Assembly: GCF_900129795.1 (NCBI RefSeq)
Contig: NZ_FQWW01000002.1
Coordinates: 186,001-250,000 of the forward strand
Origin: Flavobacterium sp. CF108
Lineage (GTDB): Bacteria > Bacteroidota > Bacteroidia > Flavobacteriales > Flavobacteriaceae
Direction of reading: 5' to 3'
DNA length: 64,000 bases
The notes beneath the pieces are model-generated. The model saw only the letters and a program-made list of their open reading frames with translations, made no database searches and had not been told where the DNA came from. Position numbers and translations under genes: made by a program. Below, one piece after another: positions 639-58,002 of the stretch; the first letter of the stretch is position 1; each line of letters begins with the position of its first letter.

Positions 639-1943
639 CTAATTTTTATTAATACTGTACTGTGACTGAGTTACGCTTTCAAAAACCGATTGTAAGTCGG
701 CAATTAAATCCTCAACATCTTCTATTCCAACAGAAAGTCGGACTAAATCTTTTGAAACTCCTGTAGCTAATTGTTCTTCTTCAGACAATTGCTGGTGCGT
801 AGTACTTGCCGGATGGATAATCAGCGATTTTGTATCACCAATATTAGCCAGAAGTGAGAACAATCTTGTTTCGTCTACCACTTTTTTAGCAGCATCAAAG
901 CCTCCTTTTAGTCCAAAAGTGATCACGCCGCTTTGGCCTTCAGGAAGATATTGTTTCGCTAAATCATAATATTTACTTGATTTTAAACCTGGGTAATTTA
1001 CCCAAACCACCTCATCTTGTTTTTCTAACCATTCGGCCAGAACCAAAGCATTTTCGCTGTGTTTTTTAATTCGGATAGGTAAGGTTTCTAGTCCCTGAAT
1101 AATCTGGAAAGCATTAAATGGACTTAAAGCTGCTCCAAAATCACGTAATCCTTCGATTCTTGCTTTTGCAATAAAGGCCGCATTTCCTAAAGCTTCGTGA
1201 TATACTAATCCGTGATATCCTGCAGAAGGTTCTGTAAATTCAGGGAATTTTCCGTTAGACCAGTCAAAAGTTCCAGCATCGATAATCGCGCCTCCTAATG
1301 AAGTTCCGTTTCCGGCAATATATTTTGTTAAGGAGTGAATTACAATATCGGCACCATATTTAATTGGGTTTAATAAATAAGGTGTCGCAACTGTATTATC
1401 TACTATAAATGGCACTTTGAATGCTTTGGCTTCCGCCGAAATTCCTTTTAAATCTAATACATCCAGTTTTGGATTCCCCAGTGATTCTACAAAGAACGCT
1501 CTGGTATTTTCTTTTGCTGCTTTAGTGAAGTTTTCAGGCTTTGAAGGATCTACAAAAGTGGTTGTAATTCCTAAACGGGGTAATGTTACACTCAATAAAT
1601 TGTATGTTCCGCCGTATAAACTGTTTGAGGCTACGATATGATCACCGGTTCTTAGCAAAGTCAAAAATGTTGTTGAAATTGCCGATGCTCCAGATGCTGT
1701 AACTACAGCTCCAATTCCGCCTTCGAGAGCCGCAAGACGTTGTTCTAAAACATCATTTGTTGGGTTGTTTAATCTGGTGTAGATAAATCCGGCTTCGGCA
1801 AGACCAAATAAATTGGCAGCATGATCTGCGTTATTAAATACGTATGATGATGTTTGGTAAATTGGCACTGCTCTTGTTCCTGAATTCTTAGTTACATCAT
1901 GTCCTGCGTGTAATGCGTTTGTTGCAAATTTTTGTGTACTCAT
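639..1943 (-). CDS. metY: O-acetylhomoserine sulfhydrylase (aminocarboxypropyltransferase)
   Basis: The 434-residue protein belongs to the Cys/Met-metabolism PLP enzyme family. It makes homocysteine (or methionine) from O-acetylhomoserine and sulfide (or methanethiol) in the cytoplasm. The PLP lysine is K207 in the SLTKYIAG motif. The YTRLNNPTNDVLEQRLAALE segment near residue 55 and the VDNTVATPYL segment near 181 are family hallmarks. The length fits the MetY/OAH-sulfhydrylase group of about 430 residues rather than the shorter cystathionine gamma-synthases of about 380. Upstream on the same strand are a 62-codon gene and a Met/Cys-rich leader with a terminator, so expression is probably controlled by attenuation. 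A likely terminator follows the stop. Confidence 0.92.
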   Translation of the reverse strand: MSTQKFATNALHAGHDVTKNSGTRAVPIYQTSSYVFNNADHAANLFGLAEAGFIYTRLNNPTNDVLEQRLAALEGGIGAVVTASGASAISTTFLTLLRTGDHIVASNSLYGGTYNLLSVTLPRLGITTTFVDPSKPENFTKAAKENTRAFFVESLGNPKLDVLDLKGISAEAKAFKVPFIVDNTVATPYLLNPIKYGADIVIHSLTKYIAGNGTSLGGAIIDAGTFDWSNGKFPEFTEPSAGYHGLVYHEALGNAAFIAKARIEGLRDFGAALSPFNAFQIIQGLETLPIRIKKHSENALVLAEWLEKQDEVVWVNYPGLKSSKYYDLAKQYLPEGQSGVITFGLKGGFDAAKKVVDETRLFSLLANIGDTKSLIIHPASTTHQQLSEEEQLATGVSKDLVRLSVGIEDVEDLIADLQSVFESVTQSQYSINKN

Positions 1944-2246: not shown

Positions 2247-2280
2247 AAAAAAGCCCTTTCGGATGGCGACCAAAAGGGCT
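2247..2280 (-). terminator. Attenuator terminator of the metY leader
   Basis: On the minus strand an 11-bp stem (2270-2280 with 2252-2262, one G-T pair) with a 7-nt loop is followed by a T-run (2247-2251). It begins about 30 nt after the stop of the Met/Cys leader ORF and lies before the 62-codon gene. Its 5' arm contains CTTTTGG (2270-2276 on the minus strand). This is complementary to CCAAAAG at the end of the leader ORF (2315-2321), which gives a competing antiterminator. Confidence 0.82.
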
Positions 2281-2311
2281 TATAGGTTAACTATAACAAA
2301 GATTTTATCTT

Positions 2312-2392
2312 TCACTTTTGGCAACAGCAAGGTTGGATGCACATTTGCATCATACTACAACACATCATATTATTTCTTGCTATTGTTTTCAT
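2312..2392 (-). CDS. Met/Cys-rich leader peptide (26 aa) of the metY operon
   Basis: ATG at 2392, TGA at 2314-2312. The 26-residue product contains 6 Met and 6 Cys, clustered as MMCC (residues 9-12), MMQMC (14-18) and PCCC (21-24). It is followed by a strong intrinsic terminator and then the metY genes, which is the classic layout of ribosome-mediated attenuation. Stalling at Met or Cys codons would leave the last codons (2315-2321) free to pair with the terminator 5' arm. A ribosome that reaches the stop codon would cover them and allow termination. A second leader of the same kind precedes the TonB receptor at 5635. The ORF composition, position and hairpins are seen directly; the mechanism is inferred. 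Confidence 0.82.
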   Translation of the reverse strand: MKTIARNNMMCCSMMQMCIQPCCCQK

Positions 2393-2788: not shown

Positions 2789-5635
2789 TTAAAATTTAAA
2801 GCTCAAACGAGCAAATCCAAATCTTCCGTTTAATCCAAATTGCGATACGGCTCTTGAATATGCAAACTGATTTGCATTTGTCAAGTCTGTACTTGGTGCC
2901 GGAGATAAAGTTGGAGTTGTATTGGTGAAAGCCGGAGTTGAAGGATTATTTCTGTCCGGATAAACATCTCCTATATTATTAAACCCAACAGTCGCTCTAA
3001 AATGTTCGTTGATTTGATATCCGAAAGATAAATCAGTTACTAATTTTGCGCTGTATTCCGGATGCTCGTATACAGAAGCAAATCCATCTAAATTAACATC
3101 AGTTGCTCCCGGATCCGTTACTTTTCCGAAATAACTGTTTCTTAAATAAATATCCAGTTTTTTAATACTGAAAGTTGTAGTTAAGTTCGCTTTCAATTTC
3201 GGAATTGCTTCTTCTAAATAAACTCGGCTTGATTCAGGAAAAAATGAATATATATAAGGATCTCCACCTGCATTAACAATAGACTGCGGAATATGTAAAT
3301 CTCCTACTCTTTTTGTTTGATTATAACTTAAAGCAAAATCATTTCTGATTACAAAATCCTGAATTACATCGTATTTTTGAGAAATTACTACATCAATTCC
3401 TTTCGTTTCAGAGTCAATTCCGTTTGTCCAGAACGAAGCTCTTTCTACACCTTTCAAATCAAATGCTTGTTGAAACAATGTCAAGGCATCTTTTTGTGTT
3501 TGCGATGTAGCGGCATTTATCTGCGCATCTGTAGGTCTTGCATATTGTCCAGACAAAACAATTCTGTCGTTGATTCTTGTAAAATAAGCATCGGTTGCGA
3601 TTGTGATATTGGCTTCCGGGATTTTAAATGTAAATCCTGTGCTGATACTTTTTGATTTCTCTGGTTTTAGGTTTTCTACACCAATACTTTTTGCTGCCTG
3701 AGAATCATTTGTAAAATATCCAACCTGATATGGAGATCCGTTAATGAACTGAGTTGAACTTGCTTCAAAGTATTTTTGCTGTAAAGATGGCGCTCTAAAA
3801 CCTGTTTGTCCAGAAATTCTCCAGTTGATATTATCGTTTAGTTTTAAAAGAGAAGCCAATTTAAAAGTAACTGTACTTCCAAAATCTGAATAGTTTTCAT
3901 AACGTGCAGCTCCGTTTAACAGCCAGTTTTCGGTTGCATTTAATTCTAAATCAATATAAGCTGCACCGCTTCGTCTGTCTCTTTCTTTAGCATCTGAAGG
4001 CTGAAATCCTGAAAATCCCTGTGCTCCTGCTCCACGTTTGTTTCCAAAAAAATCAGTAACAATTAAAGGTGAAGTAGTTGGTAAAACTCCCGAAACTAAA
4101 GTTCCATTTACATCATATAATCCGTATGAAGCTTCTTCTCCTTGTTTAATTTGATAATTTTCATATCTGAATTCACCACCAAAAGCAACGTTTAAACCTG
4201 CAAGAAAATCAAATTTTCTGCTGAAATCTAAATTGGTTGTACTTTGTAAAAATGAAACTTTTCCGGCATCAAAACTAGAAGGAGAATTTACGCCCAAAGT
4301 TGCATTGATCGTATTGTTTACATCATATTTAAAAGAGTTTGTTCCCAGGTTTGAACTCAAATCTGTATCAAATCCAAATAATTGTGTATTTACTCCAAGT
4401 GCTGCAGAAGCGTCTAAAATTCCCGATTCGATTTCTGGTAAAAATCCATTTTCATACACTTGTGTGAAAGTTCCAGAACCATTTGGAAGTCTGTTGAAAG
4501 CATACGATTTACCATCTCTATAAGAAACTCCACCAAATGAATACAATGAAGTTGTTTCTGTTAAAGGATATTTTGCATTATAATACGCTTGTCCCGAAGC
4601 CAGTTCTGACTGACCAACACTCATATTATAGTCCGCTCTTTCTTGTCCTCTGTATGCTAACTCATTATTAGTAACATCAAAATTAAGTGCAGTCTGCAAT
4701 TGCGTAATTGTTGTTGCAGATGAAATAGCGGTTTGCTGTGCCGGCGTAAAATAACTTACCTGCGGAGCATATTGCTGTATCGAGCTTATAATTTGTGCCG
4801 AATTTGGAGTCGTATTAATATTACTAAAAAGCGAATTGATCTGAACTCCATTTTGAGCCGCTCTGTTTTCTACAGCATTGTAGGCATTAAAAATTCCGTT
4901 ATTTCTAATTCCTGCACGGCTTGTTGCTTGTCTTGTTACGGCTGTTCCGGTAACATTCAAGAAACTTCCCGGTTTACCTAATGATGTCCCGTAGTTTAAA
5001 TCGACTTGCACGGTTTGTCCATCGGCTCCGCCTTTAAAATTATTGGATCCAGAAGATAAATTAGTTCCGTATTGAATTCCTCCCGAAAGATATTTAGCAT
5101 TCTTTTTCAATACAATATTAATTACTCCGGCAATGGCATCAGAACCGTATTGTGCCGCAGCTCCATCTCTTAAAACTTCGATTCTTTCAATGGCAAAAGA
5201 TGGAATCGCATTTAAATCTGTTCCTACAGATCCTCTTCCAGGTGATCCGTTTATGTTTACTAAAGCACTGGTGTGTCTTCGTTTTCCGTTTACTAAAATT
5301 AAAACCTGATCTGGGCCTAAACCTCTTAATTGTGCCGGATCAACGTGATCTGTTGCATCTGCAGTTGATGTTGCGTTACTGGTAAAAGATGGCGCAACAT
5401 AATTTAAAATTTGAGTTACGCTGGTTTGCGGTGCTCCTTTTGTTATTTCAGAAATATTAAAAACATCAACCGGAACCGGCACATCTGTTTTTACTCTATT
5501 TTTATTACGAGTTCCAATTACGGTAACTTCCGACAGTTCATTGTTCTTTAAAGTATCCTGCTCAGTTTTATTATCCTGGGCATACAGACCTGAAAATGTC
5601 AAAAGACCTAAAACGATTAGTACATTTTTTTTCAT
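2789..5635 (-). CDS. TonB-dependent outer-membrane receptor under Met/Cys leader control
   Basis: The 948-residue protein has a signal peptide (MKKNVLIVLGLLTFSGLYA). A plug domain of about residues 35-180 includes RIEVLRDGAAAQYGSDAIAG and VLILVNGKRR, and a large beta-barrel ends in a terminal aromatic residue (LSFKF). It lacks the N-terminal CarboxypepD_reg domain of SusC-type receptors, so a small-molecule or metal-complex cargo is more likely than a polysaccharide. Cargo cannot be read from sequence. The strongest clue is regulatory: a Met/Cys-rich 22-codon leader and terminator lie just upstream, as for metY, and metK is the divergent neighbour. Import of methionine, another sulfur compound or a related cofactor is therefore a reasonable inference. 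Confidence 0.88.
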   Translation of the reverse strand: MKKNVLIVLGLLTFSGLYAQDNKTEQDTLKNNELSEVTVIGTRNKNRVKTDVPVPVDVFNISEITKGAPQTSVTQILNYVAPSFTSNATSTADATDHVDPAQLRGLGPDQVLILVNGKRRHTSALVNINGSPGRGSVGTDLNAIPSFAIERIEVLRDGAAAQYGSDAIAGVINIVLKKNAKYLSGGIQYGTNLSSGSNNFKGGADGQTVQVDLNYGTSLGKPGSFLNVTGTAVTRQATSRAGIRNNGIFNAYNAVENRAAQNGVQINSLFSNINTTPNSAQIISSIQQYAPQVSYFTPAQQTAISSATTITQLQTALNFDVTNNELAYRGQERADYNMSVGQSELASGQAYYNAKYPLTETTSLYSFGGVSYRDGKSYAFNRLPNGSGTFTQVYENGFLPEIESGILDASAALGVNTQLFGFDTDLSSNLGTNSFKYDVNNTINATLGVNSPSSFDAGKVSFLQSTTNLDFSRKFDFLAGLNVAFGGEFRYENYQIKQGEEASYGLYDVNGTLVSGVLPTTSPLIVTDFFGNKRGAGAQGFSGFQPSDAKERDRRSGAAYIDLELNATENWLLNGAARYENYSDFGSTVTFKLASLLKLNDNINWRISGQTGFRAPSLQQKYFEASSTQFINGSPYQVGYFTNDSQAAKSIGVENLKPEKSKSISTGFTFKIPEANITIATDAYFTRINDRIVLSGQYARPTDAQINAATSQTQKDALTLFQQAFDLKGVERASFWTNGIDSETKGIDVVISQKYDVIQDFVIRNDFALSYNQTKRVGDLHIPQSIVNAGGDPYIYSFFPESSRVYLEEAIPKLKANLTTTFSIKKLDIYLRNSYFGKVTDPGATDVNLDGFASVYEHPEYSAKLVTDLSFGYQINEHFRATVGFNNIGDVYPDRNNPSTPAFTNTTPTLSPAPSTDLTNANQFAYSRAVSQFGLNGRFGFARLSFKF

Positions 5636-5699
5636 TTCTTTTTACTGATTAATTTGTTTTTGGCTTAAAAGGATTTACAGTTTATTTTCGGTTTTAAAC

Positions 5700-5729
5700 A
5701 AAAAAAAACCTCTGCGGCTGGCAGAGGTT
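5700..5729 (-). terminator. Attenuator terminator of the TonB receptor leader
   Basis: A perfect 9-bp stem (5721-5729 with 5707-5715) and 5-nt loop run directly into nine T on the minus strand (5708-5700). It lies 23 nt after the leader stop and about 65 nt before the receptor start. The leader ORF carries CCGCAGAG (5772-5765), identical to the terminator 3' arm, so it can capture the 5' arm (CTCTGC) as an antiterminator. Confidence 0.85.
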
Positions 5730-5752
5730 CTATATATGTTGTTGAAAAATAA

Positions 5753-5821
5753 CTACAATAGAGTCTCTGCGGATAATTCCGGCATCTTACAAGACATCAT
5801 ATTGCAAACTGTAAATTTCAT
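5753..5821 (-). CDS. Met/Cys-containing leader peptide (22 aa) of the TonB receptor
   Basis: ATG at 5821, TAG at 5755-5753. The 22-residue product has 4 Met and 2 Cys, concentrated in CNMMSCKM (residues 6-13). Its NMMSC core resembles NMMCC in the metY leader. It is followed by a perfect intrinsic terminator and then the receptor gene. The codons for Ala18-Glu19 (GCAGAG) lie in the segment that can pair with the terminator 5' arm, and a terminating ribosome would cover them. The parallel with 2312-2392, including the promoter block, supports shared attenuation control. It is too short for ordinary gene finders. Confidence 0.78.
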   Translation of the reverse strand: MKFTVCNMMSCKMPELSAETLL

Positions 5822-5845
5822 TTTGTTCTGTTTATTTTAACAAGG

Positions 5846-5877
5846 CAAATGTGCGAACTATTTTTTAACTGACCAAA
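5846..5877 (-). promoter_or_regulatory. Promoter of the TonB receptor leader transcript
   Basis: On the minus strand TTTG (5877-5874), a 20-nt spacer and CACATTTG (5853-5846) form a Bacteroidota-type promoter about 25 nt before the leader ATG. TTTGGTCAGTTAAA overlaps the -33 element and matches TTTGGCAGTTAAA of the metY leader promoter, with the same 20-nt spacer. Confidence 0.55.
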
Positions 5878-5966
5878 CAAAAACAAAAATATTTTCTATT
5901 ACCCTATCAAATTAGTATATTACTGTTAAATTTCTGCTATAAAAAATAAAAAAAGTTGAACTTTAA

Positions 5967-5996
5967 TTTGCAAATCAAAATGGTTTTATACCTTTG
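5967..5996 (+). promoter_or_regulatory. metK promoter
   Basis: TTTG (5967-5970), an 18-nt spacer and TACCTTTG (5989-5996) closely match the Bacteroidota sigma consensus. The start would fall near 6003, giving a structured 5' UTR of about 165 nt. Confidence 0.65.
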
Positions 5997-6002
5997 CACG
6001 CG

Positions 6003-6145
6003 AATACAGAGGAAAAATTTGAACTGATTGCAACCTCTTCATAATGAAATAATTCGTTATGAATACCGAAACCAAGATTTCGGTAGTAAAAAATGCTAAA
6101 GCAGGAATTCTCCTTTAGCACTTTCAGCAATTACTTTTCCTCGCT
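6003..6145 (+). promoter_or_regulatory. SAM-I-type riboswitch candidate upstream of metK
   Basis: The leader contains AGAGG (6008-6012), CTGATTGCAACCTCT (6024-6038) and ATGCTAAA (6093-6100). These resemble the conserved GCAACC and UGCUAA elements of SAM-I riboswitches. AGAGG pairs with CCTCT. Three further hairpins follow: about 6040-6061, 6065-6084 and 6094-6120. GAGGAAAA (6009-6016) is also perfectly complementary to TTTTCCTC (6135-6142), so it could close the aptamer or form the alternative state. The metK context fits SAM feedback. No covariance model was run; other SAM classes or an unrelated leader are possible. Confidence 0.62.
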
Positions 6146-6168: not shown

Positions 6169-7419
6169 ATGGCTTATTTATTTACGTCAGAATCTGTTAG
6201 TGAAGGGCATCCAGACAAAGTTGCAGATCAAATTTCGGATGCTTTAATTGATAACTTTCTGGCATTTGATGCTGACTCAAAAGTAGCTTGTGAAACTCTA
6301 GTTACTACAGGTCAGGTTATTTTAGCAGGTGAAGTAAAATCGAATACTTATCTTGATGTACAACAAATTGCACGTGAGGTAATCCGTAAAATTGGATATA
6401 CTAAAAGTGAATATATGTTTGAAGCAAATTCTTGTGGAATTCTTTCAGCAATTCACGAGCAGTCTGCAGACATTAACCAAGGTGTTGACAGAGCTAAGCC
6501 AGAAGAGCAAGGTGCAGGAGATCAGGGAATGATGTTTGGTTACGCTACAAACGAAACTGAAAACTACATGCCTCTAGCTCTTGATTTATCTCATAAATTA
6601 TTACAAGAGTTAGCTATTTTAAGACGTGAAAACAAGGAAATCACGTATTTACGTCCAGATGCTAAATCTCAGGTAACTTTAGAATACAGCGACGATAACA
6701 AACCAACTCGTATTGATGCGATTGTTATCTCAACCCAGCATGATGATTTTGATGAAGAAGCTGTAATGCTTGCTAAAATCAAAAAAGATATTATCGAAAT
6801 TCTTATTCCAAGAATTATCGCTAAAAACCCAACTCACGCTCATTTATTCAACGATAAAATCAACTACCATATTAACCCAACAGGAAAATTCGTTATTGGA
6901 GGACCTCACGGAGATACTGGTTTAACAGGAAGAAAAATCATCGTTGATACTTACGGTGGAAAAGGTGCTCACGGTGGTGGTGCATTCTCTGGAAAAGATC
7001 CAAGTAAAGTAGACAGAAGTGCTGCTTATGCAACGCGTCATATCGCTAAAAACTTAGTGGCTGCGGGTGTTGCTGACGAAATCTTAGTTCAGGTTTCTTA
7101 CGCTATTGGAGTTGCTCAGCCAATGGGTATTTTCATTGAAACTTACGGAACTTCTAAAGTAAACTTAACTAACGGTGAAATCGCTAAAAAAGTAGAAGCT
7201 ATCTTTGATATGCGTCCTTACTTTATCGAACAAAGATTAAAATTAAGAAACCCTATTTATAGTGAAACTGCTGCTTACGGACACATGGGACGTAAACCAG
7301 AAACGGTTACTAAAACTTTTTCTGCTCCAGGTGGAAACGAAAAAACAGTTACTGTTGAATTGTTCACATGGGAAAAACTTGATTTTGTTGACCAAGTAAA
7401 AGCTGCTTTTGGATTGTAA
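6169..7419 (+). CDS. metK: S-adenosylmethionine synthase
   Basis: The 416-residue cytoplasmic enzyme makes S-adenosylmethionine from methionine and ATP. It opens with [20 protein letters not shown], the ATP-binding signature of the family. It also contains DQGMMFGYA (about 119-127) and the glycine-rich [25 protein letters not shown] near 263-287. Length and order are normal for MetK. It is preceded by a clear promoter and a SAM-riboswitch-like leader and followed by a terminator, so it is a single-gene transcript divergent from the Met/Cys-controlled TonB receptor. Confidence 0.97.
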
Positions 7420-17041: not shown

Positions 17042-17073
17042 AACACGAATTTCACAGATTTGCACGAAATAAA

Positions 17074-17110
17074 AAAATGCCTCTAAATAATTTTAGAGGC
17101 ATTTTTGTTT
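17074..17110 (+). terminator. Terminator after the deoxynucleoside kinase
   Basis: A 14-bp stem (17074-17087 with 17092-17105) with a TAAT loop is followed by T-rich DNA. The 33-bp block 17074-17106 recurs as an exact inverted copy at 17644-17676. Confidence 0.85.
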
Positions 17111-17245: not shown

Positions 17246-17300
17246 TATGATTCTCTATTTCTATTCCTTGATCCTTTTATCAAATATTTAATTCCTAATG

Positions 17301-17610
17301 ATATATCTCGTAGAGATTATATATCTGTAGAATATTATCGCACCACCTAATATTTGTCCCGTAGGGACTATACCAAACGAAATGATTCTTTATGAATATT
17401 TTATTCCTAAAAGTATATATCTCGTAGAGATTACATATCGGTAGAACATTATCGCACCACCTAACATTTGTCCTGTAGGGATTATACCAAACGAAATGAT
17501 TCTTTATGAATATTTTATTCCTAAAAGTATATATCTCGTAGAGATTACATATCGGTAGAACATTATTGCACCACCTAGAATTTGTCCCGTAGGGACTATA
17601 CCAAAGAATC
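17301..17610. repeat. Tandem 114-bp repeat, about 2.7 copies
   Basis: Copies start at 17301, 17415 and 17529, with an exact 114-bp period; the third is cut after 82 bp. Each copy contains ATCTCGTAGAGAT and a GTCCCGTAGGGAC-type palindrome. In the middle copy the second palindrome changes on both sides to GTCCT/GGGAT, which keeps wobble pairing. An apparent 105-residue frame across the array is a by-product of the periodicity. This and the neighbouring palindromes fill the gene-free stretch 17111-17640. Confidence 0.85.
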
Positions 17611-17642
17611 AAGTTTCTTACTCAATTCGAAATTCACTAAAT

Positions 17643-17676
17643 AAAAAATGCCTCTAAAATTATTTAGAGGCATTTT
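17643..17676 (-). terminator. hppA terminator
   Basis: A 14-bp stem (17645-17658 with 17663-17676) runs into T on the minus strand just past the hppA stop. It is the exact inverted copy of the kinase terminator at 17074-17106. Confidence 0.85.
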
Positions 17677-17706
17677 CGTTTTTATGAAACTTTGACAAAG
17701 CTATTT

Positions 17707-57672: not shown

Positions 57673-57680
57673 TAATTTTG
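57673..57680 (+). promoter_or_regulatory. rpsO -7 promoter box
   Basis: TAATTTTG matches TAnnTTTG and lies 55 bp before the rpsO ATG. Confidence 0.6.
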
Positions 57681-57735
57681 CACCCGTCTTACAAAGGATG
57701 TATGACATACATAAAAATCATTAAATAATATTGGA

Positions 57736-58002
57736 ATGTATTTAACTAAAGAAAAGAAAGAAGAGATTTTCGCACAACACGGTGGTGCAACAAACACTGG
57801 AAGCGCAGAAGGTCAAATTGCATTGTTCACTTACAGAATTTCTCACTTAACTGAACACTTGAAAAAAAATCGTCACGATTACAACACTGAGCGTTCTCTT
57901 GTACTATTAGTAGGTAAAAGAAGAGCTTTGTTAGATTACTTGAAAAAGAAAGAGATCAACAGATATCGTGAGATTATCAAAGTATTGAATATCAGAAAAT
58001 AA
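57736..58002 (+). CDS. rpsO: 30S ribosomal protein S15
   Basis: The 88-residue protein matches S15 ([40 protein letters not shown]). It binds the central domain of 16S rRNA. As in many bacteria it is followed by pnp; a hairpin lies between them. Confidence 0.96.

Follow-up and report, generated by a model that had tools for sequence, protein, structure and literature searches.

A short leader ORF rich in methionine (Met) codons, hereafter leader 1, stands before the gene of a TonB-dependent receptor in Flavobacterium sp. CF108, and with high probability it is part of a transcription attenuator of the trp/his/leu-leader type, ribosome-mediated and responsive to methionine, under whose control the receptor has come; the response to methionine is here an inference. 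Comparison of loci establishes the ORF, the spacing of its Met codons, the two alternative helices and the conserved gene context. The window, that is, the whole stretch of DNA analysed, comprises 64,000 nt, and the features of the locus are given below in its coordinates.

5846..5877 (-): promoter-like motif P1 of leader 1, TTTG, 20 nt, CACATTTG, of the flavobacterial -33/-7 type
5753..5821 (-): leader ORF 1, 22 codons, MKFTVCNMMSCKMPELSAETLL, conserved in 57 of 57 receptor loci
5783..5785 (-): last Met codon of leader 1, 15 nt 5' of the antiterminator strand (spacing count)
5765..5785 (-): segment 1:2 hairpin ATGCCGGAATTATCCGCAGAG, a predicted fold that would hide the antiterminator strand if no ribosome stalls
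5758..5770 (-): segment 2, the putative antiterminator strand GCAGAGACTCTAT, within leader ORF 1 (folding and covariation)
5721..5733 (-): segment 3 ATAGAACCTCTGC, terminator 5' arm and also partner of segment 2 (folding and covariation)
5700..5731 (-): intrinsic terminator, 9-bp stem AACCTCTGC/GCAGAGGTT, T run 5708-5700 (hairpin scan and folding; the helix covaries)
2789..5635 (-): TonB-dependent receptor gene, 948 aa, 3' of the terminator (PF07715 plug and PF00593 barrel)
2312..2392 (-): leader ORF 2, MKTIARNNMMCCSMMQMCIQPCCCQK, before metY, present in 57 of 57 receptor loci
2251..2281 (-): leader 2 terminator; its 5' arm CTTTTGG is able to pair with CCAAAAG (2321-2315), where leader ORF 2 ends
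2219-2031 (-): 62-aa ORF between the leader 2 terminator and metY
639..1943 (-): metY, O-acetylhomoserine aminocarboxypropyltransferase (TIGR01326, 641.7 bits against a cut-off of 495.1)
6003-6109 (+): SAM-II riboswitch RF01726, long-loop form, before metK (48.5 bits)
6169-7419 (+): metK, divergent from leader 1

Both receptor domains score above their cut-offs (PF07715 68.1 bits, PF00593 99.8 bits). The 62-aa ORF has no match in Pfam or NCBIfam, and homologous stretches, 49-71% identical, occur in some of the tandem loci. No RNA family (riboswitch, T-box) is found by Rfam 15 at gathering score at 5640-6000 or 1945-2780. Since the SAM-II riboswitch precedes metK, this gene appears to be under a riboswitch and its divergent neighbours under leader attenuators. 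Leader 2 (2392-2251, minus strand) contains more cysteine (Cys) codons than leader 1, so that a second signal may come in through it. Far from this locus, the window contains an S15-Flavobacteria ribosomal protein leader (RF03161, 65.4 bits) at 57673-57738 on the plus strand, and near-identical palindromes beginning AAATGCCTCTAAA at 17073-17106 and 17644-17677, on either side of a repetitive ORF at 17295-17612.

Leader 1 and its terminator before the receptor gene

A first-pass annotation of this DNA had described a 22-codon ORF with four Met codons (start counted) and two Cys codons, and we find it at 5821-5753 on the minus strand, which the annotation left unstated. The perfect 9-bp stem that it placed after the ORF is there as well (5729-5721 with 5715-5707), and so are its nine T, with the correction that the first two of these still belong to the stem, as its final bases. 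As it also said, CCGCAGAG is present both in the leader and at the terminator 3' arm, and the leader strand is able to take the 5' arm, GCAGAG (5770-5765) pairing with CTCTGC (5726-5721) over 6 bp; in addition, the antiterminator has a flanking helix, UCUAU:AUAGA (5762-5758 with 5733-5729). The fold of the 132-nt leader region beats 200 of 200 shuffles (z -4.3), with much of the excess coming from the terminator alone. On the whole, 27 terminator-like hairpins pass our scan in the 64-kb window, and an arm-duplicating short ORF, sought even without a Met requirement, accompanies only those of leader 1 and of the metY leader. When Met codons are required, a further 60 loci, which amount to 362,448 nt with both strands included, contain no such unit. 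A leader ORF followed by a terminator with a duplicated arm is, in the window, more than chance.

To see the same region in related genomes, loci were collected by the receptor protein alone, the leader not being used in the search. Among the 58 loci returned, 57 hold close orthologues at 88% identity or more (by title, 55 Flavobacterium, one [Flexibacter] sp. and one Flavobacteriaceae bacterium), and the remaining one, a 32% fragment (L068), is excluded from all receptor counts. Absence of the ORF before orthologous receptors would have refuted the first-pass reading; actually, ORF and terminator are present in all 57 loci, each of which also has leader 2 after the receptor, metK upstream and metY downstream. 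In these 57 loci the ORF enters the antiterminator strand in one constant frame, the preceding length differences being 3 nt. A more distant receptor, 82% identical, in genome G309 likewise lies behind a leader-1 unit (L175). Such counts within the genus ignore kinship and overstate independence, because the sequences are related, so that covariation across genera weighs more.

Of the 58 loci, 57 have a promoter-like motif (at most one mismatch) ahead of leader 1 and 55 have one ahead of leader 2, the background being 2.6% of 2000 random 90-nt stretches of the window. The motif follows the flavobacterial -33/-7 consensus. Between the terminator and the receptor start (about 80 nt) it occurs in none of the 58 loci, only this type having been sought and no other. 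Because no promoter-like motif lies there, expression of the receptor should depend on read-through of the leader-1 terminator, which we regard as the most likely arrangement, inferred without transcript data.

Alternative helices and Met codons

For the comparison of helices, 94 leader-1 units are counted from 99 loci, while L180, L181, L195, L197 and L201 gave no unit by script. The 36 units outside receptor loci were found mostly via leader-peptide profiles, which favour Met and SAE, and since the set was found through the translated peptide, a distance from ATG to antiterminator in multiples of three is true by construction and is no evidence. In all 94 units the RNA that would stay free beside a stalled ribosome folds onto the 5' arm of the terminator, and TCCGCAGAG is present in 83 of them. 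The mean energy of the antiterminator duplex is -13.2 kcal/mol for native arms against -5.0 kcal/mol for shuffled ones. Arms swapped between units reach -12.7 kcal/mol, and the native arm beats the median swap in 52% of units; that swapping costs only 0.5 kcal/mol on average is because the motif hardly varies within the genus.

More telling is the comparison across genera, on an alignment of 59 units from Flavobacterium and nine other genera. In the antiterminator helix, 98.6% of cells are paired and both-sided changes occur at four of five pairs (11 cells); either value is reached by none of 500 shuffles, and sliding the partner gives a pairing of 23-52%. For the terminator helix, in which the same 5' arm takes part, both-sided changes are seen at three of six pairs, a pair number reached by 8 of 500 shuffles and a cell number reached by none of 500. 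Compensated pairs include GCAGCG/CGCTGC (L233, L235, L238), GCAAGG/CCTTGC (L216), GCGGAA/TTCCGC (L200) and GTAGGG/CCCTGC (L175). In L164, L200 and L175 the leader, the 5' arm and the 3' arm change together, and putting the window's arm on these leaders costs 5-7 kcal/mol. Compensation is not general among the changed units: L173 pairs with the window's arm no worse than with its native one (-14.2 vs -13.7), and L170 has a mismatch. As for the predicted 1:2 hairpin after the last Met codon, it pairs at least four bases of TCCGCA in 94 of 94 units, with no covariation seen in the one fixed register that could be counted.

These helices bear on whether the terminator is simply constitutive and the ORF incidental, for instance a small RNA or merely the end of the leader transcript. 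Short RNA would build up from a terminated leader whether or not it is regulated, so much can be granted; however, the 5' arm covaries with a second pairing partner, the ORF is kept in 57 of 57 receptor loci and no promoter-like motif of the type sought is found for the receptor itself, and we give this explanation hardly any credence. Regulation of the terminator remains an inference from conservation, made in the absence of termination data.

The Met codons are placed with the same regularity. In 91 of 94 units the distance from the last of them to GCAGAG is 15 nt; these are 57 of the 58 receptor loci, among which the window is counted, and 34 of the 36 others, and a recount without any demand on the position of Met gives the same 91 of 94. 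At least two non-start Met codons precede the antiterminator strand in 93 of 94 units; L173 has a single one before it and keeps the fold. Going by ribosome footprints, 15 nt roughly corresponds to a ribosome that holds the last Met codon in its A site and just frees the strand. Taken together, the covariation of the antiterminator and the fixed spacing of the Met codon support ribosome-mediated attenuation.

The first-pass annotation spoke of a Met/Cys leader, of which the Met part stands and the Cys part proves dispensable. A leader that senses cysteine, or methionine and cysteine jointly, as a general sulfur-starvation attenuator could appeal to the Cys codon or codons found in 93 of 94 Flavobacterium leader-1 units and to the still higher Cys content of leader 2. 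We consider it rather unlikely, given that the leaders of L177, L216, L235, L270, L292 and L296 have no Cys codon at all and yet keep the architecture, and that the fixed 15-nt spacing counts from the last Met codon. Since some leaders are without Cys and none is without Met, methionine is the likely signal; judged from these codons, methionine alone is most likely, and a contribution of cysteine is not excluded. A metal-binding peptide, which the CNMMSCKM stretch resembles, was set aside, as Cys is lost in several leaders and the part conserved past the Met run coincides with pairing RNA.

What is conserved after the Met codons seems to be RNA rather than peptide, because the TCC and GAG codons of the strand are rare in eight genes of the window (3.6% of Ser and 10.5% of Glu codons, respectively), yet TCCGCAGAG is near invariant. 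In L169, L179, L196 and L202 the ORF stops early, and the downstream TATTG bases persist as RNA. This matters for the proposal that the nascent peptide, instead of codon stalling, arrests the ribosome and senses methionine or S-adenosylmethionine, for which one may cite a loosely recurring core N-M-x-x-M-M and the recurring residues after it. Those residues, however, fall within the predicted hairpin and could be kept by RNA pairing, the four early stops spare the TATTG bases only as RNA, and the N-terminal part of the leader varies widely between genera, so that arrest by the peptide is in our opinion very unlikely.

In the attenuator that we propose, transcription would start just upstream of leader 1. 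With enough charged tRNA-Met the ribosome would reach the stop codon, segment 2 (GCAGAG...) would be covered or folded back, the terminator would form and the receptor would be off. When methionine is short, the ribosome would stall at the Met codons with its leading edge just before segment 2, and the free segment 2 would pair with the terminator 5' arm, letting the polymerase read through into the receptor gene. Because a similar leader precedes metY, the receptor and the MetY enzyme should rise together. It is inferred that the leader is translated, that ribosomes stall at its Met codons, in which direction the response goes and that the receptor depends on read-through. One objection must be raised against the attenuator: Met starts every protein, so that a lack of methionine should make initiation at the ATG of the leader itself less frequent, and the response would then be weaker or even reversed. 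As methionine also initiates all proteins, the leader might report a starvation window, in which moderate shortage would open the receptor gene and severe shortage would stop initiation of the leader and close the gene again; by its position between two tandem Met attenuators, a receptor for methionine or another sulfur source would thereby have come under amino-acid attenuation. We put this forward as a tentative idea, possible but on balance unlikely. The substrate itself is a guess. For the receptor, AlphaFold2 on 18 sequences gives a mean pLDDT of 53, too poor for a fold search, and a sequence search among solved structures yields 18 distinct sequences, the best matches being limited to the first 210 residues, to siderophore, ferric enterobactin, colicin I and B12 receptors and one TonB-linked receptor; matches of this extent do not name the substrate, and methionine or a sulfur source is no more than a guess.

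Leader 1 with and without the receptor

We then present the distribution of the two leaders in Flavobacterium. Among 299 genomes, leader-peptide profiles give matches to leader 1 in 75 and to leader 2 in 71 (E at most 0.05, some weak chance matches included), and by the coordinates of the matches both are present in 55. In 42 of the 55 the leaders are 3.2-3.5 kb apart, as with a receptor between them, a spacing known from coordinates only, except in the window. In the other 13 the leader starts lie about 150-540 nt apart, and all 13, when opened, show tandem leaders before metY and no receptor. The first-pass annotation had linked leader 1 to the metY leader by a shared peptide core; the loci without the receptor, where metY is preceded by the two leaders in tandem, make the link stronger than could be seen from the window. 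Further loci have leader 1 before metY with no second Met/Cys-rich leader flagged (L166, L167, L172, L178), two leaders before MetX-like and aspartokinase/homoserine dehydrogenase or homoserine-dehydrogenase-like genes (L164, L173), or leader 1 before Cys/Met PLP enzymes (L177). At L164 (1005-6004, genome G364), tandem Met leaders are followed by a MetX-like gene and then, by eye, by OsmC, homoserine dehydrogenase and MetH, of which only the MetX-like gene has been checked; from this gene order the attenuators may govern a whole Met operon.

The receptor itself was sought in 27 genomes, and seven have a match at E 1e-100, two of them at the leader locus and five, 54-56% identical, elsewhere. 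Upstream of four of these five homologues no Met/Cys leader is found. On a metY tree of 93 rows, 59 with the receptor, the distribution of the receptor needs at least 10 changes, or 6 if only starred branches count. The tree was made by a quick method and is unrooted, and 57 of its 59 receptor rows were chosen for having the receptor. It is simpler to assume that the receptor was lost repeatedly and that both leaders stayed behind, a point which an unrooted tree does not decide.

This patchiness, together with the retention of leader 1 before metY in loci lacking the receptor, is what could be expected if leader 1 still served metY and the receptor were only a passenger between tandem attenuators. 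Leader 2, however, about 3 kb downstream, has its own terminator, and a promoter-like motif of its own in 55 of 58 loci, and all close receptor orthologues found (57 loci and that of G309) sit here behind leader 1; a mere passenger is thus quite unlikely to our mind, and control of the receptor by the leader-1 attenuator remains the reading we prefer.

Beyond the genus, 120 genomes, one per genus, were taken, 77 of which have metY, and 76 stretches upstream of metY were examined (not those of G037 nor of the second copy in G018), two of them (L222, L283) shortened by a contig end. A Met-rich ORF combined with a terminator one of whose arms is duplicated is found in 10 of the 76, which are nine other genera and leader 2 of this genome. 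The same scan finds none in 76 reversed stretches, none in 76 on the opposite strand and none of 76 in each of three shuffled sets.

An RNA model (R1) built from the 59 aligned units extends this distribution; nine of the 16 genera that it matches are in its training set. At 52 bits or more it is found in 18 of 239 genomes, namely this genome, G127 and 16 other genera. At E of at most 0.01 it matches 107 of 239 genomes, the matches that are not strong scoring at most 46.2 bits, and the four of these that were opened (L305, L306, L307, L308) are all plain terminators. One match of 41.2 bits in G002 (L260, last 250 nt) lies directly before metY and resembles a leader-1 unit with an early stop. 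Because of that resemblance the 18 genomes are a lower bound, and as far as such matches can tell, the leader family is probably wider. In this genome R1 scores 84.7 bits at leader 1 and at most 39.0 bits elsewhere, and the second-ranked match (L317) was rejected as a plain terminator without a Met leader.

In the 16 genera the gene downstream of the leader is metY in 13, metX-like in two (L292, L301) and unidentified in one (L296), where the contig ends after two leaders and a transposase-like ORF lies at that end. metK adjoins the leader in 11 of the 16, in seven divergently and in four upstream in the same direction, and in the remaining five it does not lie within the 1.5 kb examined. A search of genomes for Met leader-terminator units and their downstream genes, which the first-pass annotation had suggested, thus returns metY, metX-like and other Met/Cys-metabolism enzymes, with the receptor in addition in Flavobacterium; by this list of targets, outside some Flavobacterium species all identified ones are methionine or Cys/Met-metabolism genes. 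A leader specific to the receptor can no longer be maintained, since the unit stands before metY or metX-like genes in 15 of the 16 other genera, and before metY in Flavobacterium loci without the receptor. On this distribution leader 1 would be a Met-gene attenuator older than its link to the receptor, or at least wider spread.

Relation to known attenuators and meaning

The unit resembles the enterobacterial trp, his, leu and ilv attenuators in its short ORF, which carries the regulatory codons, in an antiterminator and a terminator helix that exclude each other and, by inference, in the position of the ribosome as the switch. Of the anatomical features of the classical family that were compared, all are present except that the 1:2 hairpin is a prediction without covariation. 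It differs from those leaders in its likely methionine signal, its tandem units and an outer-membrane receptor as the target. In the same intergenic region, the SAM-II riboswitch before metK also provides methionine/SAM control, but on the opposite strand and with a different gene and mechanism.

In Shewanella, the available portion of PMC2659441 describes leader attenuators as well as riboswitches before TonB receptors (cobalamin and TPP, its Table 2). Those riboswitches and leader 1 have in common that a receptor is controlled at the level of RNA, whereas the ligand of a riboswitch binds the RNA, and for leader 1, where no described aptamer is found, the sensor would be the translating ribosome. 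Nearer to the present case, the accessible part of PMC9723704 reports strong clues for leader-peptide attenuation before amino-acid biosynthesis operons in Flavobacterium psychrophilum, of the same genus, the TonB receptor there having a cobalamin riboswitch instead; the words methionine and metY are absent from its main text, supplements not covered. Leader-like short ORFs in B. thetaiotaomicron are described in PMC7366714, again as far as the accessible part goes. Our literature search, in which subscription journals are thinly covered, returned no report that a TonB receptor or metY is controlled by a methionine leader attenuator. Within that coverage, a methionine attenuator before a TonB receptor looks new, and the underlying mechanism is well known.

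If the response holds, the range of ribosome-mediated attenuation would grow by methionine as a signal in Flavobacteriaceae and by an outer-membrane receptor as a target. An orphan TonB receptor gains, through its leader, a physiological context that can be tested, methionine shortage, and the tandem leaders with and without the receptor offer a natural series on how a transport gene enters an amino-acid switch.
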